64,000 nucleotides of DNA from Stackebrandtia nassauensis DSM 44728 (GTDB lineage Bacteria; Actinomycetota; Actinomycetes; Mycobacteriales; Micromonosporaceae): positions 2,666,001 to 2,730,000 of the forward strand of contig NC_013947.1 in assembly GCF_000024545.1 (NCBI RefSeq), read 5' to 3'. Positions 12,324-27,385 of the stretch are shown here, piece by piece. The notes beneath the pieces are model-generated. The model did no database searches, was not told where the DNA came from, and saw nothing but the letters and a program-made list of their open reading frames with translations. Numbering within the stretch: the stretch's first letter is position 1; the number at the start of each line of letters is the position of its first letter. The position numbers and the translations under genes are program-made.

Positions 12324-12787
12324 AGTTCACGGTGAACGGATCCCCGGTGACCGTCGACGACGTGTGGCCCGGTGAGAGCCTGCTGTACGTGCTGCGGGAG
12401 CGCGCCGGGTACCCCGGCGCCAAGAACGCCTGCGAGCAAGGCGAATGCGGCTCCTGCACCGTCTATCTGGACGACGAGCCGGTGTGCTCGTGCCTGGTGG
12501 CCGCGCCCCAGGCCGAGGGCCGCGAGGTGCGCACCGTCGAGGGACTGGCCGAAAAGGCCGACACCGACCTGGCCGAGATCCAGAAGGCCTTCGTCGAGGC
12601 CGGGGCCGTGCAGTGCGGGTTCTGCACCCCGGGACTGCTGGTGTCCGCCGACGACCTGCTGAACAAGTCGGCCGAACCGTCCGACGCCGAGATACGGGAA
12701 GCACTGGCCGGAAACCTGTGCCGCTGCACCGGTTACGAGAAGATTCTCGACGCCGTGCGGCTGGCCGCGACGAGGAGGGCGGCATGA
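12314..12787 (+). CDS. xdhC: Xanthine dehydrogenase 2Fe-2S subunit
   Basis: A 157-residue subunit with two [2Fe-2S] clusters. The plant-ferredoxin-like site has Cys 40, 45, 48 and 60 (CEQGECGSC). The helical domain has Cys 101, 104, 136 and 138 (CGFC and CRC). All eight ligands are present. The ATG at 12314 has AAGGAG 6-8 nt upstream, inside the end of xdhB. This symbol follows the xdhABC subunit convention; the accessory XdhC-family protein is the separate gene at 18067. Confidence 0.93.
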   Translation: MRVKFTVNGSPVTVDDVWPGESLLYVLRERAGYPGAKNACEQGECGSCTVYLDDEPVCSCLVAAPQAEGREVRTVEGLAEKADTDLAEIQKAFVEAGAVQCGFCTPGLLVSADDLLNKSAEPSDAEIREALAGNLCRCTGYEKILDAVRLAATRRAA

Positions 12788-14157
12788 GCAGCCGACTGAT
12801 CATCGACAACGCCGCCGTCGCGACCGTCGACGACACCGACACCGAGCACCAGCGCGGGCACATCGTCGTCGAGGACGGCCGCATCACCGCCGTGGCCGCC
12901 GGAAGCGCACCGTCCTTTGACGACAACACCCCGACGCAGTATGTGGACGGTGCCGGGTGCCTGGCCACGCCGGGGCTCGTCAACACCCATCACCACCTGT
13001 ACCAGTGGGTGACGCGCGGCATGGCCGTCGACCACACGCTGTTCCAGTGGCTGACCGAGCTGTACCCGGTGTGGGCCCGGCTCGACGCCGACGGCCTGTA
13101 CGCGGCGGTGCGCGGCGGCCTGGGCTGGCTGGCCCTGACCGGCTGCACCACCAGTGCCGACCACCACTACGTGTACCCGCGAGCCGTCCGCTCCGAACTG
13201 GACGCCGCGCATATCGGTGCGGTGCGCGACATCGGGCTGCGCTTCCACGCCGCGCGGGGGTCAATGGACCGGGGCGAGTCCGACGGCGGACTGCCGCCGG
13301 ACCACCTGGTGGAGTCCATCGACGAGATCCTCTCCTCCACACAGGACCTCATCGGGAAGTACCACGACCCGTCCTTCGACTCGATGCTGCGGGTGGCCGT
13401 CGCACCGTGCTCGCCGTTCTCGGTCAGCAGCCGACTGCTGCGCGAGTCGGCCGAACTGGCCCGGTCGGCGAACGTCCGGCTGCACACCCACCTGTGCGAG
13501 TCCCTCGACGAGGAGGAGTTCTGCCGCGAGACCCACGGTTGCTCCCCTGTGGAGTACATGGACTCGCTGGGCTGGCTCGGCGACGACGTCTGGTTCGCCC
13601 ACGCCGTGCACCTGTCACCCGAGGCCGTGAAACGCCTGGGCGACACCGGAACCGGAGCCGCCCACTGTCCCAGCTCCAACGCGCGGCTGGGCACCGGCAT
13701 GGCCGGGGTCCGCGCCATGCTGGACGCCCGGATGCCGGTAGGACTCGGCGTCGACGGCGCCGCCTCGCAGGAGGCGAGCATGCTGATCGACGAGCTGCGG
13801 CTGTCGCTGTACACCGCCCGCCAACTCGGCGGACCCACGGCGCTGTCCTCGCGGCAGGCGCTGCGACTGGGCACCATGGGCGGTGCCGCCGTCCTGGGCC
13901 GCCAGCACGAGATCGGCTCGCTGGAGCCCGGCAAGCTCGCCGACATCGCGCTGTGGCGGCTGGACGGTCTGGCCCACGCCGACATCGCCGACCCGGTCGC
14001 GGCCCTGACCCTCGGGGCACCCGCGCCGCTGAAGCTGCTGACCGTCGGCGGCCGCCCGATCGTGGCCGACGGCGAGCTCCTCACCGCCGACACCGCCGAG
14101 CTGGCCCGCGAGGCCCGAGCCGCCAACCGTCGCCTCGTGAACGGAGAAGCGAAATGA
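12784..14157 (+). CDS. 8-oxoguanine deaminase (amidohydrolase)
   Basis: A 457-residue zinc amidohydrolase. The metal pair is NTHHH (His 69 and 71), with further ligands in RLHTHLCES and FAHAVHL and a catalytic Asp in GLGVDGAASQE. Sequence character (HLYQWVTRGMAVDHTLF, ASQEASMLIDELRL) fits the 8-oxoguanine deaminase group, whose product is urate. It could alternatively be a guanine deaminase-type enzyme. It sits between the small and large xanthine dehydrogenase genes with ATGA overlaps on both sides, so it is made with them. That placement supports a route feeding urate directly to uricase. Confidence 0.85.
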   Translation: MSSRLIIDNAAVATVDDTDTEHQRGHIVVEDGRITAVAAGSAPSFDDNTPTQYVDGAGCLATPGLVNTHHHLYQWVTRGMAVDHTLFQWLTELYPVWARLDADGLYAAVRGGLGWLALTGCTTSADHHYVYPRAVRSELDAAHIGAVRDIGLRFHAARGSMDRGESDGGLPPDHLVESIDEILSSTQDLIGKYHDPSFDSMLRVAVAPCSPFSVSSRLLRESAELARSANVRLHTHLCESLDEEEFCRETHGCSPVEYMDSLGWLGDDVWFAHAVHLSPEAVKRLGDTGTGAAHCPSSNARLGTGMAGVRAMLDARMPVGLGVDGAASQEASMLIDELRLSLYTARQLGGPTALSSRQALRLGTMGGAAVLGRQHEIGSLEPGKLADIALWRLDGLAHADIADPVAALTLGAPAPLKLLTVGGRPIVADGELLTADTAELAREARAANRRLVNGEAK

Positions 14158-16499
14158 CGAGCCAGGAACGCGAAGCGACCGGCCACGGTGCCACAGCTTC
14201 CGCCGTCACGCAGCGGTCGCTGCCCACCCCGCTCACGCAGGGGCTGCGGGGCGGCGTCGGCGACAGCCCCGTCCGCCCCGACGCCCGGCTGAAGGTGCGC
14301 GGCGAGTTCGCCTACTCCTCCGACCTGTGGATGGAGAACATGCTGTGGGGCACGACGCTGCGCAGCCCGCATCCGTACGCCCGCATCCGAAGCATCGACA
14401 TATCGCCCGCCCTCAAGCTCCCCGGCGTGCGGTGCGTGCTGACCGCCGAGGACGTCCCCGGCGTGAAGTTCTACGGCAACGACCACCCCGACCAGCCGGT
14501 GCTGGCCATGGATGTCGTCCGCTACCAGGGCGAACCGGTGGCCATCATCGCCGCCGACCATCCCGAGACCGGACGTCGAGCCGCCAAACTGATCGAAGTG
14601 GACTACGAGGTCCTCGAACCGCTGACCGACCCGCGGCGGGCCATTCTCGACGAGTCCGCGCCCCACCTGCACGAGGGCGGCAACATCGTCCGCCACCAGC
14701 CGGTGCGGGTCGGCGACCCCGACAACGCCACCGCCGACGTGGTCGTGACCGCCGAATACGAGGTCGGCATGCAGGACCAGGCGTTCCTCGGCCCCGAATC
14801 CGGGCTCGCGGTTCCCGCCGAGGACGGCGGCGTCGACCTGTACATCGCCACCCAGTGGATCCACAATGACCTGTGGCTTGTGGCGCCGTGCCTTGGCCTG
14901 CCCGAGGACAAGGTCCGCATGACGCAGTCGGGCGTCGGCGGCGCCTTCGGTGGCCGCGAGGACCTGTCGGTCCAGATCCACGCCTGCATGCTGGCACTCC
15001 ACACCGGTCGGCCGGTGAAGATGATGTACAACCGGGAGGAGTCGTTCTTCGGCCACGTCCACCGCCACCCCGCGTTGATGCGCTACGAGCACGGCGCCAA
15101 CCGCGACGGCAAACTCGTCTACGCCAAGGCCGAGATCATCCTGGACGGCGGCGCCTACGCCTCGACCACCCCTGCGGTTGTCGGCAACGCCGCCTCACTC
15201 GGCATCGGCCCCTACGAGGTCCCGCACATCAAGATCGACGCCTGGGGCACCTACACCAACAACCCGCCCTGCGGCGCGATGCGCGGCTTCGGCGCCGTCC
15301 AGGCCTGCTTCGCCTACGAGTCCCAGATGGACGCGATGGCCGCGAAACTCGGACTGTCCCCGGTGGAGTTCCGGCGCCGCAACGCCGTGTCCCAGGGCAG
15401 CGCGCTGGCCACCGGCCAGGTCATCGACTCACCCGCGCCGCTGGCCGAGATGCTGACCCGGCTGGAGGCCATGGAGTTGCCCCGACCGGTCGACGACGAC
15501 GGGTACGACCTGCGGGGACTGCCCGGCGGCGTCGCCAACACCACCCACGGCGAGGGCGTCAAGCGCGGCGTCGGCTACGGCGTCGGCATCAAGAACATCT
15601 GCTTCTCCGAGGGCTTCGACGACTACTCCACCGCGCGGGTCCGGCTGGAGGTCATCGGCGGCGAACCCGTCGCCCTCGTCCACACCGCGGGTGTCGAGGT
15701 CGGTCAGGGGCTGGTGACCCTTGAGGCCCAGATCGCCCGCACCGAACTCGGCGTCGAGCAGGTCACGATCGTCCCGGCCGACACTCAGGTCGGCTCGGCC
15801 GGATCCTCCTCGGCGTCGCGCCAGTCCTACATGACCGGCGGCGCGGTGCGGCAGGCCTGCCTGGCCGTGCGCGCCGTGGTCGCCGAACGCGTCGGCTCGT
15901 CCGCCGACGAGATCACGCTGACCGGCGGCAAGATCGTCTCGGCGACCCGCGGCGTGATCGGCGCGCTCGCCGAGATCCTGGGCGACTCGCCCATCGAGCA
16001 GACCCGCGAATTTCGTCACAGACCGACCCAGGAGATGGATCCGGTCACCGGCCAGGGCGACTCACACACCCAACTGGCCCTGTGCGTGCACCGAGCGGTT
16101 GTCGACGTCGACGTCGACCTCGGACTGGTCAAGGTCGTCGACCTGGCCGCCGTCCAGGACGTCGGCAAGATCCTCAACCGACTGTCCCTGGAGGGGCAGA
16201 TACACGGCGGTACCGCACAGGGCCTCGGCCTGGCCGTCATGGAGGAAATCCTCGTGACAGACGGGAAAGTACGCAATCCGTCCTTTACCGACTATCTCAT
16301 CCCGACGATCCTCGACATGCCACCCATGCGTATGGAGATCCTCGAGTATCCCGACCCGAACGCACCCTACGGACTGCGCGGCGCCGGCGAACCTCCCACG
16401 CTGTCGTCCACACCCGCCATCGCCGCGGCCATCCGCGACGCCACGGGACTGCGCCTGCCCCGGGTGCCCATCCGCCCGGAGCACATCACGAATACCTGA
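14154..16499 (+). CDS. xdhA: Xanthine dehydrogenase molybdopterin-binding subunit
   Basis: A 781-residue catalytic subunit that hydroxylates hypoxanthine and xanthine to urate. The a/b hammerhead domain (about 45-160) precedes the two molybdenum-binding domains. Motifs include GVGGAFGGRED, CGAMRGFGAVQ, AGSSSASRQSYMTGGA and GAGEPP, whose Glu is the active-site base position of the family. The N-terminal 40 residues are a non-conserved extension. The ATG overlaps the deaminase stop. A 92-nt gap separates it from the permease gene. Confidence 0.93.
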   Translation: MTSQEREATGHGATASAVTQRSLPTPLTQGLRGGVGDSPVRPDARLKVRGEFAYSSDLWMENMLWGTTLRSPHPYARIRSIDISPALKLPGVRCVLTAEDVPGVKFYGNDHPDQPVLAMDVVRYQGEPVAIIAADHPETGRRAAKLIEVDYEVLEPLTDPRRAILDESAPHLHEGGNIVRHQPVRVGDPDNATADVVVTAEYEVGMQDQAFLGPESGLAVPAEDGGVDLYIATQWIHNDLWLVAPCLGLPEDKVRMTQSGVGGAFGGREDLSVQIHACMLALHTGRPVKMMYNREESFFGHVHRHPALMRYEHGANRDGKLVYAKAEIILDGGAYASTTPAVVGNAASLGIGPYEVPHIKIDAWGTYTNNPPCGAMRGFGAVQACFAYESQMDAMAAKLGLSPVEFRRRNAVSQGSALATGQVIDSPAPLAEMLTRLEAMELPRPVDDDGYDLRGLPGGVANTTHGEGVKRGVGYGVGIKNICFSEGFDDYSTARVRLEVIGGEPVALVHTAGVEVGQGLVTLEAQIARTELGVEQVTIVPADTQVGSAGSSSASRQSYMTGGAVRQACLAVRAVVAERVGSSADEITLTGGKIVSATRGVIGALAEILGDSPIEQTREFRHRPTQEMDPVTGQGDSHTQLALCVHRAVVDVDVDLGLVKVVDLAAVQDVGKILNRLSLEGQIHGGTAQGLGLAVMEEILVTDGKVRNPSFTDYLIPTILDMPPMRMEILEYPDPNAPYGLRGAGEPPTLSSTPAIAAAIRDATGLRLPRVPIRPEHITNT

Positions 16500-16591: not shown

Positions 16592-18043
16592 ATGAGCAGC
16601 AGTACAACCAGGGCCGCCACCCGCCCCAAATCCGGTGGTGAGCCCGGCTGGTTCGACCGGTGGTTCCAGATCACCGAACGCGGCAGCAGCGTCGGCCGCG
16701 AAGTCCGCGGTGGCCTCACCACCTTCATGGCGATGGCCTACATCATCGCCCTCAACCCCCTGATCCTGTCCGGCGCCAAGGACGTCAACGGCGAGTCACT
16801 GTCGGTCGTCGGCGTCACCACCATGACCGCGTTCTCGGCGTTCGTGGCCACCCTCGTCATGGGCGCGCTGGGCCGGGTGCCGCTGGCACTGGCCGCCGCG
16901 CTGACCGTCAACGCCGTGGTCGCCTACCAGATCGCCCCGCAGGTCACCTGGCCGCAGGCCATGGGCCTGGTCGTCATCCAGGGCCTCGTGATCGTGCTGC
17001 TGGCCGCCAGCGGCGTCCGCACCATGATCATGAACGCGATCCCGCTCGACCTCAAACACGCCATCGGCGTCGGCCTGGGGCTGTTCATCGCCCTCATCGG
17101 ACTCGTCAACGCCGGTTTCGTCACCCGCCGTCCCGACGCCGACGGCACCTCGGTGCCGGTGACGCTGGGCCAGGGCGGCGTCCTCAAGGGCTGGCCGATC
17201 GTGGTGTTCGTCGTCGGCATGCTCATCATCATCGCGCTGTGGGCCCGCAAGATCCCCGGCTCGGTGCTGCTGGGCGTCGTGGTGGCCACGGTGCTGGCCA
17301 TCATCATCGAGTCGACGCTCCACCTTGGATCGAAGATCTGGGGGGTCGTCACCCCGGCGATGCCCGAGAAGGTCGCGCAGGCCCCGGACTTCTCACTGTT
17401 CGGGCAGGTCGACGTCATCGGCGCCATCACCCAGATCGGCTTCGTGTCACTGATCGTGTTCGTCTTCACGCTGGTGCTGTCGGGCTTCTTCGACGCCATG
17501 GGCACCGTGATCGCGGTGTCCGACGAGGCCGGACTGGTCGACAAGGACGGCCAGCTGCCCGGCATCGGACGGGTGCTGTCCATCGACGGCGCCGCGGCCA
17601 CCTTCGGCGGCATCACGTCCTCCTCGGCCAACACCGTGTTCGTCGAGTCGGCGGCCGGGGTCGGCGACGGCGCCCGCACCGGTCTGGCCAGTGTGGTCAC
17701 CGGCGGCATGTTCGGTCTGGCGATGTTCTTCGCGCCGCTGGCCACCGTGATCCCGCAGCAGGCCGCCGCCCCCGCGCTGGTCCTGGTCGGCGGTCTCATG
17801 TGCGCCCAGGCCAAGAACATCGACTGGAAGAACACCGAGATCGCCATCCCGGCGTTCCTGATCCTGGCCATCACCCCGTTCACCTACTCGGTGACCGCCG
17901 GGGTCGGTGCCGGGGTGATCGCCTACGTCGTCATCAAGGCCGTCAACGGCAAGTGGCGCGAACCCGGCTGGCTGCTGTGGATCGTGTCGCTGGTCTTCGT
18001 CGCCTACTTCGGAATACACACGATCGAGAGACTGGTGCAGTAG
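16592..18043 (+). CDS. NCS2-family purine permease (AzgA-like)
   Basis: A 483-residue integral membrane transporter of the hypoxanthine/guanine/adenine group. The N-terminal FQITERGSSVGREVRGGLTTFMAMAYIIALNP is the AzgA-type signature. About twelve to thirteen hydrophobic segments follow, and FDAMGTVIAV and SSANTVFVESAAGV match the substrate-binding half-helices of the family. GGGAG lies 6 nt before the ATG. Its place after xanthine dehydrogenase suggests it imports the purine bases the operon degrades. Confidence 0.92.
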   Translation: MSSSTTRAATRPKSGGEPGWFDRWFQITERGSSVGREVRGGLTTFMAMAYIIALNPLILSGAKDVNGESLSVVGVTTMTAFSAFVATLVMGALGRVPLALAAALTVNAVVAYQIAPQVTWPQAMGLVVIQGLVIVLLAASGVRTMIMNAIPLDLKHAIGVGLGLFIALIGLVNAGFVTRRPDADGTSVPVTLGQGGVLKGWPIVVFVVGMLIIIALWARKIPGSVLLGVVVATVLAIIIESTLHLGSKIWGVVTPAMPEKVAQAPDFSLFGQVDVIGAITQIGFVSLIVFVFTLVLSGFFDAMGTVIAVSDEAGLVDKDGQLPGIGRVLSIDGAAATFGGITSSSANTVFVESAAGVGDGARTGLASVVTGGMFGLAMFFAPLATVIPQQAAAPALVLVGGLMCAQAKNIDWKNTEIAIPAFLILAITPFTYSVTAGVGAGVIAYVVIKAVNGKWREPGWLLWIVSLVFVAYFGIHTIERLVQ

Positions 18044-18066: not shown

Positions 18067-19224
18067 ATGCGTGACATCGCCGCCGAACTCGCCGACTGGT
18101 TGCGGACCGGACGGCACTTCGCGATGGCATCGGTGATCGATGTCGCCGGTTCGGCTCCTCGCCCCATCGGCACCGCGCTGGCCGTCGACGCCGACGGGAC
18201 CGCCGTCGGCGGCGTGTCCGGCGGCTGCGTCGAGGGCGCGGTGTACGAACTGTGCCAACAGGTCCTGGCGACCGGCGAGTCGCGGATCGAGAGCTTCGGC
18301 TACTCCGACGAGGACGCCTTCGCGATCGGACTGACCTGCGGCGGCACCGTCACCGTCTTCGTCACCCGCGTCGAACCCGGCGACCCCGCACTGTTGGCCA
18401 CAGTGGACGCGATCCTCGCGGGCCGTTCCGTGGCCGTGGCCCGAGCGATCTCCGGCCCCGGCGCCGGACGGGCGCTGGCCGTGACCGACCAGGCCGCCAC
18501 TCCCGAGCGGCCGGACTGCCAGGCCGCCAGTGGTTCGCTCGGCGACGCCACCGCCGACACGGTGATCGGCTCGCTCGGCGCGGCCGACGTCGACGCCGCC
18601 GCTGCCGAGCAGGCCCGCGAGCTCCTGGCGCGTGGCGGTTTCGGCCGCTTCGACACCGGCATCGGCGAGGTCCTCGTCGAGACCTACCCCAGCCCGCCCC
18701 GGCTGCTGGTCTTCGGGGCCGTCGACTTCGCCGCCGCCGTGGTGCGGGCCGGGAAGTTCCTCGGCTACCGGGTCACCGTGTGCGACGCCCGCCCGATCTT
18801 CGCCACCGAGCTGCGGTTCCCCGAAGCCGACGAGGTCGTCGTCGACTGGCCGCACCGCTACCTCGACGCGACCACCATCGACGAACGCACCGCCGTGTGC
18901 GTCCTCACCCACGACCCCAAGTTCGACATCCCGCTGCTGGAACGCGCGCTGCGGCTGCCGCTCGGCTACGTCGGCGCCATGGGTTCGCGACGCACCCACC
19001 GCGACCGGGTCCGGCGGCTGCGCGAAAAAGGAGTCACCGACACCGAACTGGCCGCACTGCACTCGCCCATCGGCCTCGACCTGGGCGGCCGCACCCCCGA
19101 GGAGACCGCGCTGTCCATCGCCGCCGAGATCGTGGCGCTGCGCAACAACGCCGACGGCGGTTTCCTGTCGGCCACCGACGTCCCCATCCACCGCGGCCGC
19201 GGCGGCGCGGTCGAAGCGGCCTGA
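18067..19224 (+). CDS. XdhC/CoxI-family xanthine dehydrogenase maturation factor
   Basis: A 385-residue accessory protein thought to bind and deliver (sulfurated) molybdenum cofactor to xanthine dehydrogenase. The N-terminal XdhC_CoxI domain has GGVSGGCVEGAVYE and GLTCGGTVTVF. The C-terminal Rossmann domain (about 215-360) has LLVFGAVDFAAAVV, CDARPIF, LTHDPKFD and the GYVGAMGSRRTH motif. GGAAGGAG precedes the ATG. It complements MocA encoded across the locus. Confidence 0.92.
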   Translation: MRDIAAELADWLRTGRHFAMASVIDVAGSAPRPIGTALAVDADGTAVGGVSGGCVEGAVYELCQQVLATGESRIESFGYSDEDAFAIGLTCGGTVTVFVTRVEPGDPALLATVDAILAGRSVAVARAISGPGAGRALAVTDQAATPERPDCQAASGSLGDATADTVIGSLGAADVDAAAAEQARELLARGGFGRFDTGIGEVLVETYPSPPRLLVFGAVDFAAAVVRAGKFLGYRVTVCDARPIFATELRFPEADEVVVDWPHRYLDATTIDERTAVCVLTHDPKFDIPLLERALRLPLGYVGAMGSRRTHRDRVRRLREKGVTDTELAALHSPIGLDLGGRTPEETALSIAAEIVALRNNADGGFLSATDVPIHRGRGGAVEAA

Positions 19225-19268: not shown

Positions 19269-19649
19269 ATGGTCCACATGTTTCTCAACGGCGGCGCGAT
19301 GCGCGGCGGCCCGCTGCACGACAAACTGTGCGGCGCCCCGCTGGTGGCCGAGACCCGCTCGGCGCCCGAGTACCGCTTCTACTCCGTCGGGGATCGCTTC
19401 CCCGCCATGGATCCCACCGACGACCACGGCCACGCCGTGGTGGGGGAGGTGTACGACGTGTCACTGGACGTCCTGCACGACTCGCTGCTGCCCGCCGAGC
19501 CCGAGGAACTCGAACTGGGCGTCATCCGGCTCGCCGACGGGCAGCCCTGTCTGGCCATGGTGCTGCGCCGCAACCTGCGCGGCCACCCGTCACTGACCGA
19601 CATCTCGGACCTCGGTTCGTGGAACAACTACCAGGAGATCACCTCATGA
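19269..19649 (+). CDS. Small allophanate-hydrolase C-terminal-domain-like protein (GGCT fold)
   Basis: A 126-residue protein that resembles the C-terminal AH_C domain of allophanate hydrolase and the gamma-glutamylcyclotransferase fold. Visible features are MRGGPLHDKLCGAPLVAE near the start, RSAPEYRFYSVGDRFPAM, a Val-rich strand (AVVGEVYDVSLDVLHDSL) and LELGVIRLADGQ. No amidase domain is fused. AAGGAG lies 6 nt before the ATG, and its stop overlaps the hyi start by ATGA. Its catalytic role is unknown. In this operon it could handle a urea-, carbamate- or ureidoglycolate-type intermediate, which is inference. Confidence 0.75.
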   Translation: MVHMFLNGGAMRGGPLHDKLCGAPLVAETRSAPEYRFYSVGDRFPAMDPTDDHGHAVVGEVYDVSLDVLHDSLLPAEPEELELGVIRLADGQPCLAMVLRRNLRGHPSLTDISDLGSWNNYQEITS

Positions 19650-20443
19650 CCCGCTTCACCGCCAACCTGTCCATCCTGTTCACCGAGCTGCCGCTGCTCC
19701 AGCGGCCCGCGGCGGCACGGGCGGCCGGGCTGGAAGCCTGCGAGTTCTGGTGGCCGTTCCCGACCCCGACACCCTCGGATTCCGAAGTAGACGCGTTCGC
19801 CTCGGCCGTCACCGACGCCGGACTCCAGCTGACCGGACTGAACTTCGCCGCCGGGGACATGCCGGGCGGCGACCGGGGACTGCTGTCCTCCCCGTCCGAA
19901 TCGGCGGCGTTTCGCGACAACATCGACATCGCGCTCGGCATCGCCGATCGCCTGGGCTGCAAGGCACTCAACGCCCTGTACGGCAACCGCGTCGACGGCG
20001 TCGACCCCAATGCTCAGGACGCGCTGGGAGCCGAGAACCTGGCACTGGCGGCTGCTGCCGCCGCCAAACAGGACGCGGTGGTGCTCGTCGAAGCCGTCAA
20101 CTCCATCGAGAACCCCCGCTACCCGCTGACGTCCTCGACCGACGTCATCGCGGTCCTGGACCGGGTCGGTTCCGCCAACCTGAAGTTCCTCGCCGACTTC
20201 TACCACCTGGCCCGCATGGGGGAGAACTTCGACGAGGTGCTGTCCGTCCACTTCGACCGGATCGGGCACGTGCAGATCGCCGACGTCCCCGGCCGGGGTG
20301 AACCCGGCAGCGGAACCTTCGACTTCGCCGCGCTGTTCGACGACCTCGACGTGCGCGGCTACTCCGGCCTGGTGGGCCTGGAATACAAGCCCACCGTGGC
20401 CAGTGCCGACAGTCTCGGCTGGATGGAGAAACACCGGCAGTAA
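19646..20443 (+). CDS. hyi: Hydroxypyruvate isomerase
   Basis: A 265-residue xylose-isomerase-like TIM barrel that interconverts hydroxypyruvate and tartronate semialdehyde. Features are the N-terminal FTANLSILFTELPLLQRPAAA, the AGLEACEFWWPF strand, VLVEAVNS with the metal Glu, FLADFYHLARMGE, and GHVQIADVPGRGEPG leading to the C-terminal GLEYKPT, which provides the last metal ligand. Length is typical. It is coupled to the AH_C-like gene and precedes glxR in the glyoxylate branch. Confidence 0.9.
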   Translation: MTRFTANLSILFTELPLLQRPAAARAAGLEACEFWWPFPTPTPSDSEVDAFASAVTDAGLQLTGLNFAAGDMPGGDRGLLSSPSESAAFRDNIDIALGIADRLGCKALNALYGNRVDGVDPNAQDALGAENLALAAAAAAKQDAVVLVEAVNSIENPRYPLTSSTDVIAVLDRVGSANLKFLADFYHLARMGENFDEVLSVHFDRIGHVQIADVPGRGEPGSGTFDFAALFDDLDVRGYSGLVGLEYKPTVASADSLGWMEKHRQ

Positions 20444-20531: not shown

Positions 20532-21416
20532 ATGACGACCATCGGATTCATCGGACTGGGCATCATGGGCGCGCCCATGGCCAAACACCTCGTCGACGCC
20601 GGGCACCAGGTGCACGGCTTCGACCTCTCCGCCGACGCGACGGCCGCGCTGGCCGCGGGCGGCGGCAAGGCCGCCGGTTCCATCGCCGAGGCGGTCAACG
20701 GCGCCGACCTCGTCATCACGATGCTGCCCGCCGACCCGCACGTCGAGACGGCCGTGCTCGGCGAGGACGGCGTCCTGGCCCACGCGAAGACCGGCAGCCT
20801 GCTCATCGACATGAGCACCGTCAGCCCGCAGACCTCCCAGGCCGTCGCCGAAGCTGGAAAGGCACGTGGGGTCCGAGTACTGGACGCCCCGGTGTCCGGC
20901 GGCCAGGCGGGCGCTGTCGAAGGTGTCCTGTCCATCATGGTCGGCGGTGACGAGTCCGACTTCCGGGCCGCCGCCCCCGTCTTCGACGCCTTCGGCAAGA
21001 CCGTCGTCCACGTCGGACCCCACGGCGCCGGGCAGGTCGTCAAGGCCGCCAACCAGCTGCTCGTCGGCGGCATCATCGCGCTCAACGCCGAGGCGCTGGT
21101 GCTGATGGAGGCCAGCGGTGTCGACCCGCGACTAGGACTAGAGGTCCTCAATGGAGGGTTGGCCGGATCCACCGTCCTGACCCGCAAGATGGACAACTTC
21201 GTCAACCGCTCCTACGACCCGGGTTTCCGGATCGACCTGCACCACAAGGACATGGGCATCGCCCAGAACGCCGCCCGGGGCGCGGAGGTCGCGCTGCCGC
21301 TGACGGCGGCCGTCGCCCAACTCGTCGCCGCCGCCCGCGCCCAGGGGCTCGGCGACCGCGACCACTCCGCCCTGCTGGCGGTCATCGAGGGATTCAACAA
21401 CCGGAAGGAGACATAG
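20532..21416 (+). CDS. glxR: 2-hydroxy-3-oxopropionate (tartronate semialdehyde) reductase
   Basis: A 294-residue beta-hydroxyacid dehydrogenase that reduces tartronate semialdehyde to D-glycerate. The Rossmann motif GFIGLGIMGAPMAKHL is at the start. The substrate loop DAPVSGGQAGAVEG and the catalytic region GPHGAGQVVKAANQLLVGG (with the family Lys) follow, then the all-helical C-terminal domain. AGAGGAAAC precedes the ATG. It lies three bases upstream of gcl, whose product it uses. Confidence 0.93.
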   Translation: MTTIGFIGLGIMGAPMAKHLVDAGHQVHGFDLSADATAALAAGGGKAAGSIAEAVNGADLVITMLPADPHVETAVLGEDGVLAHAKTGSLLIDMSTVSPQTSQAVAEAGKARGVRVLDAPVSGGQAGAVEGVLSIMVGGDESDFRAAAPVFDAFGKTVVHVGPHGAGQVVKAANQLLVGGIIALNAEALVLMEASGVDPRLGLEVLNGGLAGSTVLTRKMDNFVNRSYDPGFRIDLHHKDMGIAQNAARGAEVALPLTAAVAQLVAAARAQGLGDRDHSALLAVIEGFNNRKET

Positions 21417-21419
21417 ACC

Positions 21420-23132
21420 ATGGCGAAGATGCCAGTCATGCAGGCGGTCGTGGAAGTGCTCAAGAGCGAGGGAGTCGACATCGCGTTCGGCTGCCCCGGA
21501 GCCGCGATCCTGCCGCTGTACCACGCGATGGAACAGAAAGGAGGGATCAAACACCTCATCGTCCGGCACGAGGAGGGCGCCACCCACATGGCCGACGGCT
21601 GGGCCCGCACCAACGGCAAGGTCGGCGTCGCCATCGGCACCTCCGGACCGGCCGGGACCAACATGATCACCGGCCTGTACACCGCGATCGCCGACTCGAT
21701 CCCGATGGTGTGCATCACCGGCCAGGCCCCACTGGCCAAACTGCACCAGGAGGCGTTCCAGGCGGTCGACATCGTCGACATCGCCGCCCCGGTGACGAAG
21801 TGGGCGGTGCAGGTCAAGGAGGCCGCGCAGGCGCCGTGGATCTTCCGGCAGGCGTTCCGCATCGCTCGGTCCGGACGCCCCGGCCCGGTCCTCATCGACC
21901 TGCCCCTGGACGTGCAACAGCAGCTCATCGAATGGGACCCGGCGATCGACTCACCATTGCCGGTTACCAGCGTCGAGCCGCACCTGCCCCGGGTCGAGAA
22001 GGCACTGGAGTTGTTGCTGGCGGCCGAGAAGCCGCTCATCCTCGCCGGAGGCGGCGTTATCACGGCCGACGCCTCCGACGAACTGCTGGCGGTCGCGGAA
22101 CTGCTGGACATCCCGGTGCAGGTGACCCTGATGGGCAAGGGCGCGCTGCCCGACGACCACCGGCTCAACGCGGGGATGACCGGCGTCCAGACCACCCAGC
22201 GCTACGCCAACCAGTCGTTCCTCGAGTCCGATGTGGTGCTGGCGGTCGGGGCCCGGTTCGGCGACCGCCACACCGGCGCGCTGGACGTCTACCGGGGCGA
22301 ACGGAAGTTCATCCACGTCGACATCGAGCCCACCCAGCTGGGCAAGGTGTTCGGGCCGGACCTGGGGATCGTCTCGGACGCGAAGATCTTCCTGCGGACG
22401 CTGCGCGACCTGGCCCGCGCCCGCGACACGGTGCCGAAACGTCCCGACTGGACGGCCCGCATCACGGAGCTGAAGGGCACACTGGAGCGTCGGCTGGACT
22501 ACGACGCGGTGCCGATCAAACCGCCGCGCGTGTTCGCCGAGATCAACGCGGCCTTCGGGCCCGACACGTACTTCGTGACCGCTATCGGGCTGTACCAGAT
22601 CTGGTCGGGCATGTACCAGAAGGTCCACAAGCCACGGCACTACCAGGTGTGTGGCCAGGCCGGGCCGCTCGGTTGGGAGATCCCGGCCGCGATCGGTGTC
22701 AAGAAGGCCCTGGAGTCGGCCGGACAGTCCGATACTGAGGTCGTGGGCGTCGTCGGTGACTACAGCTTCCAGTTCCTGGTCGAGGAGCTCGCCGTCGCGG
22801 CCCAGTACAACGTCGGGTTCGTGCTCGTCATGCTCAACAACGAGTACCTGGGCCTGATCCGGCAGGCCGAGCTGGAGTACGAGATGAACTACGAAGTGGA
22901 CATCCACTACGACGAGTACGGCGCCGACAACGTGGCCATCATGGAGGCGTACGGCTGCGCGGGGCGCCGCGTGTTCGAGCCGGGCGACATCGCCGAGGCG
23001 ATCACCTGGGCCCGTAAGGAAGCCGCTGCCACCAGCCGTCCGGTGCTGGTCGAGGTCATGGTCGAACGCGAAGCCAACTCGGCGCGCGGCAAGGCCATCG
23101 ACGCGATCATCGAACCCGAACCGATCGGCTGA
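21420..23132 (+). CDS. gcl: Glyoxylate carboligase (tartronate-semialdehyde synthase)
   Basis: A 570-residue thiamine-diphosphate enzyme that joins two glyoxylates to tartronate semialdehyde and CO2. It aligns without gaps over its first 50 residues with the E. coli enzyme as I remember it, and shares ITGLYTAIADSIPMVCITGQAP, RSGRPGPVLIDLP and CGQAGPLGWEIPAA. The ThDP motif GDYSFQFLVEELAV...NNEYLGLI is in the C-terminal domain. Residue 51 is Glu (VRHEEGATHMADG) where characterised carboligases have Val. GGAAGGAG precedes the ATG. Context (hyi, glxR, glycerate kinase) supports the call. It lacks the last 20 or so residues of the E. coli protein. Confidence 0.9.
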   Translation: MAKMPVMQAVVEVLKSEGVDIAFGCPGAAILPLYHAMEQKGGIKHLIVRHEEGATHMADGWARTNGKVGVAIGTSGPAGTNMITGLYTAIADSIPMVCITGQAPLAKLHQEAFQAVDIVDIAAPVTKWAVQVKEAAQAPWIFRQAFRIARSGRPGPVLIDLPLDVQQQLIEWDPAIDSPLPVTSVEPHLPRVEKALELLLAAEKPLILAGGGVITADASDELLAVAELLDIPVQVTLMGKGALPDDHRLNAGMTGVQTTQRYANQSFLESDVVLAVGARFGDRHTGALDVYRGERKFIHVDIEPTQLGKVFGPDLGIVSDAKIFLRTLRDLARARDTVPKRPDWTARITELKGTLERRLDYDAVPIKPPRVFAEINAAFGPDTYFVTAIGLYQIWSGMYQKVHKPRHYQVCGQAGPLGWEIPAAIGVKKALESAGQSDTEVVGVVGDYSFQFLVEELAVAAQYNVGFVLVMLNNEYLGLIRQAELEYEMNYEVDIHYDEYGADNVAIMEAYGCAGRRVFEPGDIAEAITWARKEAAATSRPVLVEVMVEREANSARGKAIDAIIEPEPIG

Positions 23133-23136
23133 GGCC

Positions 23137-24294
23137 ATGAGACGTGTCGTCGTCGCCCCGGACAAGTTCAAGGGCTCGCTGTCGGCTGCCGAGGTCGCGG
23201 CGCACTTGGCGGCCGGACTCCGCACGGAAGGGTCCGACGTCGAGTGCGTCCCGGTGGCCGACGGCGGCGACGGCACCGTCGCGGCGATGGTCACGTCCGG
23301 CTACCAAGCACAGTGGACCAGAGTCACCGGCCCACTCGGAGCCCTCGTAGACGCGATGTGGGCTAGCTCTAGCTCTGGAGCGGCGGTCGCGGTCGTGGAG
23401 CTGGCCCAAGCCTCCGGCCTCGTCCTCTCGCCCCGGCCGCTGGACGCCTTGCGCGCCAGCAGCCGGGGCACCGGCGAACTGCTGCGAGCCGCCCGCGACA
23501 GCGGGGCCCGCCACGTCGTCCTCGGCGTCGGCGGCAGCGCCTGCACCGACGGCGGCGCGGGCATGCTCCAAGCCCTCGGCGTCCGCCTCCTCGACGCCAA
23601 CGGCCGCGACCTCCCACCCGGCGGCGCCGCGCTGCGCGACCTGGCCAGCATCGACGCCGCCGAAGTCCCCGACGCCTGGCGCGACATCGAGGTCACCGTC
23701 GCCTGCGACGTCGACAACCCGCTGCTGGGCCCCAACGGGGCCGCCGCCGTGTACGGGCCCCAGAAGGGCGCGTCCCCGTCCGATGTGGCGGTACTGGAGG
23801 CGGGGCTGGCACGCTTCGCTGAGGTGGTTCGCCGCGACTTGGGCGTGGACGTGGCCGACTCGCCCGGCGCCGGAGCCGCCGGGGGAGTCGCATACGGCGT
23901 CTTGGCTTTCCTCGATGCCAGGCTCCGTTCCGGCATCGAGCTCGTGCTGTCGCTCGTGGACTTCGACAAACGGCTCGTCGGAGCCGACCTCGTCATCACC
24001 GGCGAAGGTCGCCTCGACACCCAGACCATGCGCGGCAAAGCTCCCGCCGGAGTCGCCGCCGCCGCGACCCGTGCGGGAGTGCCCACGATCGCCGTCTCCG
24101 GAGTGTGCGAGCTAACCAGCGCCCAACTGGTTGAAGCCGGGTTCACCGCCGCCTACCAGCTGTCCGACCTGGAGCCCGACCTCCAACGCTCCATCCGCGA
24201 CGCTGGCCCACTGCTCGAACGCATCGCCACCCACATCGCCGCCGACCTACTCGCGGCACCGGCCCACAATCCGACCGCACCGAGGAGCTCGTGA
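23137..24294 (+). CDS. glxK: Glycerate 2-kinase (type I, GlxK/GarK family)
   Basis: A 385-residue kinase that phosphorylates D-glycerate, moving the glyoxylate branch into glycolysis. Conserved stretches are APDKFKGSLSA at the start, VADGGDGT, VLGVGGSACTDGGAGMLQALG, ACDVDNPLLGPNGAAAVYGPQKGA and the C-terminal ADLVITGEGRLDTQT. It begins 4 nt after the gcl stop and its own stop overlaps the allB start region, so it is coupled to both. Confidence 0.92.
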   Translation: MRRVVVAPDKFKGSLSAAEVAAHLAAGLRTEGSDVECVPVADGGDGTVAAMVTSGYQAQWTRVTGPLGALVDAMWASSSSGAAVAVVELAQASGLVLSPRPLDALRASSRGTGELLRAARDSGARHVVLGVGGSACTDGGAGMLQALGVRLLDANGRDLPPGGAALRDLASIDAAEVPDAWRDIEVTVACDVDNPLLGPNGAAAVYGPQKGASPSDVAVLEAGLARFAEVVRRDLGVDVADSPGAGAAGGVAYGVLAFLDARLRSGIELVLSLVDFDKRLVGADLVITGEGRLDTQTMRGKAPAGVAAAATRAGVPTIAVSGVCELTSAQLVEAGFTAAYQLSDLEPDLQRSIRDAGPLLERIATHIAADLLAAPAHNPTAPRSS

Positions 24295-25601
24295 TGACCC
24301 ACGACGTAGTCCTGCGCTCGCGCCGCGCCATCCTGCCCGACGGCGAACATCCCGCCGCCATAGCCATCACCGACGGCCGCATCGCCGACATCGCCGCCCA
24401 CGACGCCCCGCTTCCCGCCCATCGTGACGAGGACTACGGCACCCTCCCGCTCCTGCCCGGGCTCGTCGACACCCACGTGCACGTCAACGAGCCGGGCCGC
24501 ACCCACTGGGAGGGCTTCGCCACCGCGACCCGGGCCGCTGCCGCCGGGGGAGTGACCACCATCGTGGACATGCCGCTCAACAGCCTGCCCCCAACGGTCG
24601 ACCCCGAAGCTCTGGGCGTCAAGCGTTCCGCCGCCGACGGCCAGGTGTTCACCGACGTGGGTTTCTGGGGCGGCGCGATTCCCGCCAACCTCGGCCGCCT
24701 CAAACCGCTGCACGACAGCGGGGTGTTCGGGTTCAAGTGCTTCACCGCGCACTCCGGAGTGGACGAGTTCCCGCCGCTGGACCCCGATCGGCTGCACAGC
24801 GCGCTGGCCGAGGCCGCACGGATCGACGTGTTGGTGATCGTGCACGCCGAGGAACCCGGGATGCTGGACGCCGCCCCGGCGGGCGCGGACTTCGCCGGTT
24901 TCGTCGCCTCGCGGCCGTCCGGCGCCGAGGTGGCGGCGATCCGGCAGGTCATCGACGCCGCCCGCCACACCGGCGCCCGGGTCCACATTCTGCATCTGTC
25001 GGCCGCCGAGGCCCTGGACGAGTTGCGGGCCGCCCGCCATGCCGGGCTGCCCGTCACCGCCGAGACCTGCCCCCACTACCTGGTGCTGGACGCCGCCGAG
25101 GTCCCCGACCTGGCCACCCAGTTCAAGTGCTGCCCGCCGATCCGCGACGCCGCCAACCGTGAGGCACTGTGGACGGCACTGGCCGACGGCCTCATCGACT
25201 GCGTCGTGTCCGACCATTCCCCGTGCCCGCCCGAACTCAAACAAGGCGACTTCGGGACCGCCTGGGGCGGCATCGCCTCCGTCCAGCTCGGCCTGTCGCT
25301 GATCTGGACCGCCGCCCGCGAACGCGGGCATTCGCTGTCCGATGTCGCCACCTGGATGGCGACCGCGCCCGCGTCGCTGGTCGGGCTGCACGGCAAGGGA
25401 AGCATCGCGATCGGCAACGACGCCGATCTGACCGTCTTCGACCCCGAACGGCGCTGGCGGGTACGCGGCGCCGAGTTGCACCACCGTCACCCCATCACCG
25501 CCTACGAGGGCCGCGAACTGACCGGCACCGTGACCGCCACCTGGCTGCGCGGTCGACCGGTCGGCGCGACCCCTCACGGGCGGTTGCTGTCCAAGGAGTA
25601 G
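24294..25601 (+). CDS. allB: Allantoinase
   Basis: A 435-residue cyclic amidohydrolase that hydrolyses allantoin to allantoate. The metal motif is DTHVHVNEPGRTHWEGF (His 61 and 63). The carboxylated-Lys position is FGFKCF (Lys 148), with HAEEP, ILHLSAAEAL and the catalytic SDHSPCP. The ATG at 24294 sits 6 nt after GAGGAG; a GTG one codon earlier is nearly as good. It overlaps the glycerate kinase stop, and allantoicase follows 4 nt later. Confidence 0.94.
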   Translation: MTHDVVLRSRRAILPDGEHPAAIAITDGRIADIAAHDAPLPAHRDEDYGTLPLLPGLVDTHVHVNEPGRTHWEGFATATRAAAAGGVTTIVDMPLNSLPPTVDPEALGVKRSAADGQVFTDVGFWGGAIPANLGRLKPLHDSGVFGFKCFTAHSGVDEFPPLDPDRLHSALAEAARIDVLVIVHAEEPGMLDAAPAGADFAGFVASRPSGAEVAAIRQVIDAARHTGARVHILHLSAAEALDELRAARHAGLPVTAETCPHYLVLDAAEVPDLATQFKCCPPIRDAANREALWTALADGLIDCVVSDHSPCPPELKQGDFGTAWGGIASVQLGLSLIWTAARERGHSLSDVATWMATAPASLVGLHGKGSIAIGNDADLTVFDPERRWRVRGAELHHRHPITAYEGRELTGTVTATWLRGRPVGATPHGRLLSKE

Positions 25602-25605
25602 CCCC

Positions 25606-26628
25606 ATGCAGTTCACCGATCTCCCCGACCTGGCCGTCCGTTCCCTGGGCGGGGCCGTGCTGGCCGCCAACGACGAGTCCTTCGCCGAGAAGGAGTGCCT
25701 CGTCCGTGATCCCGAACCCGTCTACACGCCCCACGACTTCGGCAACAAAGGACAGATCTACGACGGCTGGGAGACCCGCCGCCGCCGCGAACCCGGCCAC
25801 GACTGGGCGCTGATCCGGCTGGGCGTGCCCGGTCTGGTCCACGGCGTCGTCGTCGACACCGCGTTCTTCAAGGGCAACTATCCGCCCGAGGTCTCCGTCG
25901 AGGGCTGCACCCTCGGCGGCTATCCCGGTCCCGCCGAACTCGCCGAGGCCGACTGGCGTGAACTGGTTCCCCGCAGCCAGGCCAGCGGCCACACCAAGAA
26001 CCACTACAAGGTGGACAGTCCCCGGCACGTCACCCACGTACGCCTCAACATGCACCCCGACGGCGGTATCGCGCGGCTGCGGGTCCACGGCGAACCCGTA
26101 CCGGACCCGGCGCTGTTCACCAGGCTCCCGCTCGACCTGGCCGCGCTGGTCAACGGTGGCGGGGTCGTGGCCGCCAGCGACTCGTTCTACTCCCGTCCCT
26201 GGGGCGCCATCATGCCCGGCAACGCCAGTTCGCAGGCCGACGGCTGGGAGACCGGTCGCCGCCGCGACGACGGCAACGACTGGCTGACCGTGAAACTCGC
26301 CGGTCGCGGCGTGATCGCGGTGGCCGAACTGGACACCACCCACCTGAAGTTCAACGCCCCCGGCGCGGCGGCGCTGCGCGGCTTCGACGCCGCCGCCGGG
26401 GCCGACATGGACGACGAGTCCGCCTGGTTCGACCTGTTGGGCCGCACCCGGCTGCAACCCGACACCCCGCACCGGTTCGCCGTCGAGGACGCGCGCCCCG
26501 CGACCCATGTGCGCCTTGACATCTACCCCGACGGCGGCATGGCCCGGCTACGGCTGTTCGGCGAACTGACCGCCGAGGCATTGCGCGACATCGAGAGGAG
26601 GTATCTCACACTGACGTCCGCGACCTGA
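25606..26628 (+). CDS. alc: Allantoicase
   Basis: A 340-residue enzyme that splits allantoate into urea and ureidoglycolate. It is built of two repeats of the allantoicase jelly roll. QIYDGWETRRRREPGHDWALIRL (first) is echoed by QADGWETGRRRDDGNDWLTVKL (second), and HVRLNMHPDGGIARLRVHGE is echoed by HVRLDIYPDGGMARLRLFGE. GGAG precedes the ATG. It is the last gene of the purine operon. No ureidoglycolate lyase or urease follows. Confidence 0.94.
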   Translation: MQFTDLPDLAVRSLGGAVLAANDESFAEKECLVRDPEPVYTPHDFGNKGQIYDGWETRRRREPGHDWALIRLGVPGLVHGVVVDTAFFKGNYPPEVSVEGCTLGGYPGPAELAEADWRELVPRSQASGHTKNHYKVDSPRHVTHVRLNMHPDGGIARLRVHGEPVPDPALFTRLPLDLAALVNGGGVVAASDSFYSRPWGAIMPGNASSQADGWETGRRRDDGNDWLTVKLAGRGVIAVAELDTTHLKFNAPGAAALRGFDAAAGADMDDESAWFDLLGRTRLQPDTPHRFAVEDARPATHVRLDIYPDGGMARLRLFGELTAEALRDIERRYLTLTSAT

Positions 26629-26656: not shown

Positions 26657-27385
26657 ATGACGGAATCCCCGGCCTTCGACCACCTGCTGCACTGTGTGCC
26701 CGATGTGGAGGCGACGGTCGCGAAGTACAGCGCCGCCGGTCTTCCCGCCCACGCCAACGAACCCTTCGAGGGCTTCCACAACGGCGCCTGGCTGCTGGAC
26801 GTCCGCTACGTCGAGATACTGACCATCGTGGATCGTGAACTGTTCGCGCCCTCCGCGTTCGGCAAGGCCACCACCGGCTGGATGCCCACGATCGACCGGC
26901 TGATGGGCGACGGCGGCGGAGCCCTGAACTTCGCCGTCAACGTCACCGACGTGGACGCCACCGCCGAGCGGCTGCGTCGGCAGGGCCACGACGTCGAGGT
27001 CACCACCTTCAGCTTCGACGGCTCCCCGGTCAGCTTCCGCGAGGCCATCCTCACCGACGCTCCACCATGGGCACCGTTCTTCATCACCTACACGCCGTCC
27101 CGCGAGGAGATCTGGACCAAGCTCGCGGCCGACCGCGTCAACCGCGGCACCCACGACCTGACCGGCATCGTCATCGAGACCCCGCGTCCCGACGAGGCCG
27201 CCACCTGGCTCAGCGAACTGACCGGCGTCCCCCGCGACGAAGACACCGCGGCCGTCCCGCTGCCCGGCGCCACCGTCCATTTCGTCCCCGGCGAGGCCGA
27301 CCAGATCACCACACTCCTGCTGGCCGAAGGGAACCCGCCGACCACCACCGTCGACGGCCTCGCCCTGCGCCCGGCTACGAACTGA
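26657..27385 (+). CDS. VOC/glyoxalase-like domain protein
   Basis: A 242-residue protein with a duplicated vicinal-oxygen-chelate (Glyoxalase_3-like) pattern: AFDHLLHCVPDVEATVAKYSAAG at the start, an inner LNFAVNVTDVDATAERLRRQGHDVE, and a second half beginning THDLTGIVIETPRPDEAA. Its substrate is unknown. The only potential metal ligands are scattered His/Glu residues (His 9, Glu in RYVEIL). It is preceded by a near-consensus iron box and probably starts transcription at its ATG. Its 3' end overlaps the convergent DUF3000 gene by 11 bp. Confidence 0.8.
   Translation: MTESPAFDHLLHCVPDVEATVAKYSAAGLPAHANEPFEGFHNGAWLLDVRYVEILTIVDRELFAPSAFGKATTGWMPTIDRLMGDGGGALNFAVNVTDVDATAERLRRQGHDVEVTTFSFDGSPVSFREAILTDAPPWAPFFITYTPSREEIWTKLAADRVNRGTHDLTGIVIETPRPDEAATWLSELTGVPRDEDTAAVPLPGATVHFVPGEADQITTLLLAEGNPPTTTVDGLALRPATN

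Follow-up and report, generated by a model that had tools for sequence, protein, structure and literature searches.

A glyoxylate carboligase of Stackebrandtia nassauensis with glutamate at position 51 belongs to a common and probably ancestral branch of its family

Introduction

Glyoxylate carboligase (Gcl) from Escherichia coli is the usual illustration of a thiamine enzyme able to function in the absence of its glutamate. PMC3534367 describes it as representing the whole family and gives valine at position 51 as characteristic of every Gcl. In the PDB, valine occupies this position in all five distinct E. coli Gcl sequences (query, residues 1-120 of E. coli Gcl) and, once the Deinococcus enzyme 7ct6 is added, in all six distinct sequences named Gcl among the matches of the window protein. 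Introducing glutamate into the E. coli enzyme (V51E) was reportedly found by Kaplun in 2008 to speed ylide formation and slow the overall reaction.

Here we analyse a window of 64,000 nucleotides from Stackebrandtia nassauensis DSM 44728 (NC_013947.1, positions 2,666,001 to 2,730,000), which encodes a Gcl with glutamate at this position. We consider it probable that the protein is a genuine Gcl of an older Glu51 branch, acting in a purine-to-glycerate operon with canonical activation by glutamate, and that the Val51 form arose once.

Results

Glutamate 51 and the surrounding operon

The gcl reading frame gives an uninterrupted translation of 570 residues that starts MAKM and carries R49, H50, E51, E52 and G53 in the motif RHEEGATHM. 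With phmmer it aligns from residue 1, gap-free past residue 51, to the Gcls of E. coli (8i05) and Deinococcus (7ct6), both of which read RHVEGASHM and place Val51 opposite the window's Glu51. Translation and alignment thus bear out the initial annotation, which had set Glu51 against the E. coli valine without gaps from Met1. Three trivial explanations fall away: a one-residue slip of the alignment, as E52 is kept in all 194 distinct Gcls; a sequencing accident, as Glu51 also occurs in 78 of 80 loci gathered by similarity, a sample biased towards the query in which the other two have Val51; and a single odd gene, as Glu51 recurs in relatives and in both the class and phylum samples described below.

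The neighbourhood reads, from its domain assignments, as a probable pathway for purine breakdown to glyoxylate and then to glycerate, and the genes upstream of gcl, from the deaminase-like ORF to glxR, all run in its direction. Pfam or NCBIfam matches uphold the operon partners named in the initial annotation, hyi, glxR and glycerate kinase:

12445..14157, + strand: ORF with a guanine/8-oxoguanine deaminase-like enzyme, whose domain starts near ORF residue 115 (NF006055, 648.5 bits, cut-off 532)
14154..16499, + strand: xanthine dehydrogenase molybdopterin subunit (PF02738, PF20256, PF01315; start by eye)
16592..18043, + strand: xanthine/uracil permease family protein (PF00860, 90.3 bits; start by eye)
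18067..19224, + strand: xdhC, xanthine dehydrogenase accessory protein (PF13478, PF02625; start by eye)
19269..19649, + strand: stand-alone AH_C (allophanate-hydrolase C-terminal, GGACT-like) protein, 126 aa (PF21986, 89 bits; start by eye)
19646..20443, + strand: hyi, hydroxypyruvate isomerase-like, 265 aa (PF01261, 124.3 bits for the enclosing ORF; start by eye at ATG)
20532..21416, + strand: glxR, tartronate semialdehyde reductase, 294 aa (TIGR01505, 368.9 bits for the enclosing ORF, cut-off 340.75; start by eye)
21420..23132, + strand: gcl, Glu51-type glyoxylate carboligase (tartronate-semialdehyde synthase), 570 aa (NCBIfam, Pfam)
21570..21572, + strand: Glu51 codon (residue 51 of the translated protein)
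23137..24294, + strand: glxK, glycerate kinase, 385 aa (TIGR00045, 406.6 bits, cut-off 168.45)
24291..25601, + strand: allB, allantoinase, 436 aa (TIGR03178, 571.5 bits, cut-off 357.85)
25606..26628, + strand: alc, allantoicase, 340 aa (TIGR02961, 375.6 bits, cut-off 277.9)

Directly after the allantoicase lies a glyoxalase-like protein (26657-27385, + strand; PF13468, 115 bits). Among relatives, an AH_C protein accompanies 12 of the 24 Glu51 gcl places with allantoicase in the flank and 7 of the 112 without it, in flanks of unequal length. The window's own genome encodes allantoicase, but PF04115, the model for AllA-type ureidoglycolate lyase, has no match in it; the same search finds the E. 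coli control. The AH_C/GGACT-like protein may be a non-orthologous enzyme for the step from ureidoglycolate to glyoxylate.

The Glu51 type is common

Across all searches we collected 194 distinct Gcl genes, 137 with Glu51 (86 GAG and 51 GAA codons) and 57 with Val51 (45 GTC, 7 GTG, 4 GTT and 1 GTA). A sample of 394 genomes of the window's class, its own included, was searched with the Gcl family model at 1e-190, a cut-off that could miss weak members, and 75 genomes matched. Their scores form two groups with nothing in between: 47 places at 1022-1238 bits, where residue 51 was read in 42 and was always valine, and 30 places in 28 genomes at 650-717 bits, where it was read in all 30 and was always glutamate. 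Glu51 is thus present in 28 of the 75 Gcl-bearing genomes. At phylum level, 31 of 296 genomes (overlapping the class sample, window's genome included) match at 1e-125, of which 19 have Glu51 and 12 Val51, one of the two places in genome G724 being unread. The initial annotation had treated the glutamate as a peculiarity that would lose its force were it usual in actinobacterial carboligases; this is partly so, Glu51 being common there alongside Val51 Gcls. Because it is common, the window protein is not odd within its lineage, and we regard it as an ordinary member of a common Glu51 branch of a textbook enzyme family.

Closer to the window, all 17 Gcl-bearing genomes among 150 of its family have Glu51, and within its genus only the window genome, of five, has a Gcl (1e-140). 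Further away, Glu51 Gcls also occur in a few Proteobacteria: matches were found in 7 of 289 genomes of the class of Inquilinus (3 Glu, 4 Val) and in 5 of 274 of the class of a Burkholderiaceae locus, L084 (1 Glu, 4 Val), each sample including its own centring genome (one Glu, one Val). Both types were never seen together among the 75, 31, 7 and 5 Gcl-bearing genomes of these overlapping samples; scoring was limited to the top few candidates of each genome, and the second G724 place (61% identical) was unread.

Two genomes carry two Glu51 copies each, about 74-75% identical to the query in one (L133 and L137, G406) and 65% in the other (L136 and L139, G204). A record titled Mycobacterium sp. 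KBS0706 (L076, 6001-7713) holds a Gcl 61% identical to the query; it groups with genes of G1093 and Alsobacter, with Inquilinus genes close by, and the record may be misnamed.

Conserved residues and operon partners of relatives

Seven residues, E52, T259, I393, P420, L421, L478 and I479 (E. coli numbering), are invariant across the 57 Val51 and the 137 Glu51 Gcls and absent from all 14 acetolactate synthases read. Q115 and I479 are assigned to the pocket on the basis of PMC13327070, which tabulates both for Gcl; the other Gcl-specific residues presumably belong to it too. Q115 and I479 are present in all 194 Gcls, and Q115 is also present in all 14 acetolactate synthases. One PDB entry, 8beo, is titled as the I393A mutant of E. 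coli Gcl with MAP. Judged by these residues, the Glu51 enzymes resemble Gcl at the sites presumed to govern substrate choice. I393 presumably bears on that choice, as we take the MAP of 8beo to be a pyruvate analogue.

Gene context was counted at 190 distinct places (136 Glu51, 54 Val51) within 1.5 kb of gcl for either partner. Next to Glu51 genes, hyi occurs in 122 of 136 places, glxR in 119 and both in 114; next to Val51 genes, hyi occurs in 27 of 54 and glxR in 34, figures for which a close comparison between types is unsafe, because flank lengths range between roughly 1.5 kb and at least 6 kb across loci. One or other partner is missing nearby in 22 of the 136 Glu51 places, only some of which are accounted for by short flanks, and both are missing in nine. 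Eight of these nine belong to the window's family or to named Micromonosporaceae, and the ninth (L078) is an Inquilinus gene near a contig end. Four Micromonosporaceae loci (L011, L017, L081 and L085) have no hyi or glxR in 6-kb flanks of their Glu51 gcl. Of three ORFs scanned at L011, one is TauE-like, one is ketopantoate-reductase-like and one has no match; L081 and L085 have genes for GntR/FCD regulators and aldehyde dehydrogenase close to gcl. Another TPP enzyme is also encoded near the gcl of L081. Such Glu51 copies without hyi and glxR may serve another route.

These exceptions bear on the idea that the Glu51 type, though related to Gcl, has taken on another function, using glyoxylate as donor with another acceptor such as an aldehyde, or accepting a broader range, so that tartronate semialdehyde would be one product of several. 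Two residues lend it some substance: R484 is arginine in 24 of 27 Val51 representatives versus only 4 of 39 Glu51 representatives, and N283 is asparagine in 27 of 27 versus only 4 of 39, counts which suggest that substrate contacts may differ in Glu51 Gcls. The Micromonosporaceae copies that lack both partners, including the two beside regulators and aldehyde dehydrogenases, point the same way. We nevertheless think this explanation unlikely for the branch, as hyi and glxR, which belong to the tartronate semialdehyde pathway, adjoin gcl in the large majority of places and the seven Gcl-specific residues are unchanged. These partners and residues support the prediction that the Glu51 enzymes carry out the same reaction as other Gcls.

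Val51 forms a single derived clade

For phylogeny, 88 representatives were chosen by identity from 244 loci and five distant ones dropped. The tree of the remaining 83 was built with column 51 removed, rooted on acetolactate synthases within an outgroup of 17 rows (13 acetolactate synthases and four distant thiamine enzymes lumped by score), with 200 bootstrap trees. All Gcls form one clade (100/100), inside which the 27 Val51 rows form one derived clade (100/100). The Glu51 Gcls make up a grade: an actinobacterial clade (87/65) takes in 34 rows, and five others join the Val51 clade at 100/99, one from an actinobacterial family (f72) and the others Inquilinus-like, Alsobacter and relatives. 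Removing the four long-branched distant outgroup rows leaves these groups unchanged. A FastTree of 208 rows likewise groups the 57 Val51 rows into one clade free of Glu51; branching among its nearest Glu51 rows is partly weak (support 0.256 at one node). Nine Glu51 genes share features with Val51 Gcls, namely I69, M150 and W241 (9/9), D113 (8/9), N283 (7/9) and a short insertion. Constraining every Glu51 Gcl into a single sister group of the Val51 clade costs 12.55 log units, which an AU test does not reject (p 0.239); paraphyly of the Glu51 type is not proven by this test, and the ancestral glutamate is independent of it.

As the outgroup and all non-Val51 Gcls have glutamate, a single Glu-to-Val change suffices. 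That Glu51 is ancestral and Val51 most simply derived once is well supported by the tree, and of the two histories offered in the initial annotation, a lineage that kept the canonical glutamate fares best. The other, in which Gcl started out with Val51 and glutamate was restored in the actinobacterial lineage, we regard as highly improbable: a single base separates GTG and GTA from GAG and GAA codons, but the Val51 Gcls are split from the outgroup by one branch in 100% of the 200 bootstrap trees, and at E. coli positions 31, 48 and 82 the Glu51 Gcls moreover match the residue most frequent in the outgroup, so that several reversions would be needed.

The change at position 51 has company. We counted as switching any residue that reaches 93% or more among the Val51 Gcls, is absent from the nine Glu51 genes near Val51 and stays below 3% in the other 128, which yields N31, A48, V51, S55, D82, Y178, A188, T392, S396, L404, W412, N414, T424, L443, S444, D448, H468, Q483, K521 and L555. 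About twelve of these besides position 51 are nearly absolute, and at 31, 48 and 82 the Glu51 residue is the commonest of the acetolactate synthases (11, 12 and 14 of 14). Near-fixed changes at some twelve further positions accompanied the rise of Val51. Judging from the fold, positions 31, 48, 55, 82, 392, 396 and 448 presumably lie near the cofactor, and we propose that the accompanying changes may compensate for the lost Glu51. With a long stem leading to the Val51 clade (0.46 changes per column), however, drift is expected to account for some switching positions.

Family identity of the window protein

Several lines of evidence place the window protein among the Gcls. It passes the curated cut-off of NF008431 (914 bits against 791; scored on the window protein only) and, by 0.3 bits, that of TIGR01504 (711.5 against 711.2); it contains all three TPP-enzyme Pfam domains; in the tree it falls among known Gcls and outside the acetolactate synthases (100/100); and it lies in an operon with hyi, glxR and glycerate kinase. 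The borderline TIGR01504 score counts against this assignment, and most of its type score lower still: 27 of the 30 Glu51 places of the class-wide search (650-708 bits) miss the cut-off, so strict use of this model would leave most of them unnamed. An AlphaFold2 model from 32 sequences (mean pLDDT 82.0, below 50 at 476-498, the stretch that holds the equivalents of L478 and I479) is closest in predicted fold to E. coli Gcl (TM 0.91-0.92). Gcl structures occupy ranks 1 to 7 (TM by query 0.88-0.92), followed, among the best 50 rows, by acetohydroxyacid synthases and an HKA synthase (TM 0.79-0.87).

Within the window's own genome the next best match is only 38% identical, and matches other than this acetolactate synthase are at most 31% identical. 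It is scarcely credible that the window protein is itself an acetolactate synthase or other thiamine enzyme misnamed Gcl, as its canonical glutamate and borderline TIGR01504 score might suggest, since its TIGR00118 score of 507.9 bits is below the acetolactate synthase cut-off of 538.35, it lies outside that clade at 100/100, contrary to the first of the two placements, among acetolactate or among sulfoacetaldehyde enzymes, that the initial annotation had named as fatal to a Gcl, the separate 38%-identical gene (L002) is the one that falls among acetolactate synthases, and no small subunit was found by Pfam or NCBIfam among the neighbours scanned.

Discussion

Although PMC3534367 presents valine as a mark of the entire family, this does not hold in our wider set for genes assigned to Gcl by operon context and tree. 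Val51 marks one clade only, 57 of 194 genes, and we do not take it as family-defining; under the printed definition, the window protein, which has Glu51, would be a sister or basal subfamily and no member. The oddity lies less in the window protein than in a literature that, as far as seen, treats Val51 as family-wide. We recognised no description of a Glu51 Gcl in literature listings, with most subscription journals outside their scope, and claim no absence from print; as far as the literature searched goes, the branch is common yet unremarked.

In the proposed mechanism, the surrounding operon would degrade purines via allantoin to glyoxylate. We infer that, like its counterpart in acetolactate synthase, Glu51 would form a hydrogen bond to N1' of thiamine diphosphate and speed ylide formation. 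The ylide would then attack glyoxylate, CO2 would leave, and the resulting carbanion would attack another glyoxylate. The product, tartronate semialdehyde, would be reduced by GlxR to glycerate, the substrate of GlxK. The Val51 form would descend from such an enzyme by one Glu-to-Val change on the stem of one clade, accompanied by about a dozen other near-fixed changes.

A large Glu51 branch with the same partners and residues implies that the glutamate was lost inside the family, most simply once. Natural before-and-after pairs of enzymes thus exist, which opens the reason for dropping the glutamate to kinetics and reciprocal mutants. More tentatively, the family may comprise two catalytic types: a Glu51 type with ordinary activation, and a later Val51 type in which much of the cofactor site (31, 48, 51, 55, 82, 392/396 and 448) was refitted and fast ylide formation traded for faster later steps. 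If so, the rate-limiting step, the protonation state of N1' and the by-products would set the two apart, and the switch could be retraced between living enzymes, one residue at a time.

Among described enzymes, E. coli Gcl (2PAN, 8I01; P0AEP7) is 51% identical to the window Gcl over the match and has the same predicted fold. The two have I393, P420, L421, L478, I479, Q115 and R284 in common, and E. coli gcl likewise lies near hyi, glxR, allB and glxK. They differ at position 51, valine in E. coli and glutamate in the window, and in a short insertion near E. coli 498-506 that the window Gcl lacks. In place of the Val51 with N31, A48, D82, S396 and D448 of the Val51 type, the window protein has E51, L31, V48, N81, Y392 and S449 in its own numbering; in E. 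coli numbering its L31, V48, T55, N82, Y396 and S448 stand against N, A, S, D, S and D in the 57 Val51 Gcls (S55 in 56 of 57). Its best PDB sequence match is the Gcl of Deinococcus metallilatus (7CT6, organism by title; 628 bits), which differs in being of the Val51 type. Acetolactate (acetohydroxyacid) synthase large subunits share the three-domain fold, have glutamate at position 51 in 14 of 14 and resemble the window Gcl at L31 (11/14), V48 (12/14) and N82 (14/14), but they are only 34-40% identical to it (13 representatives), form a separate clade at 100/100 and have none of the seven Gcl-specific residues.
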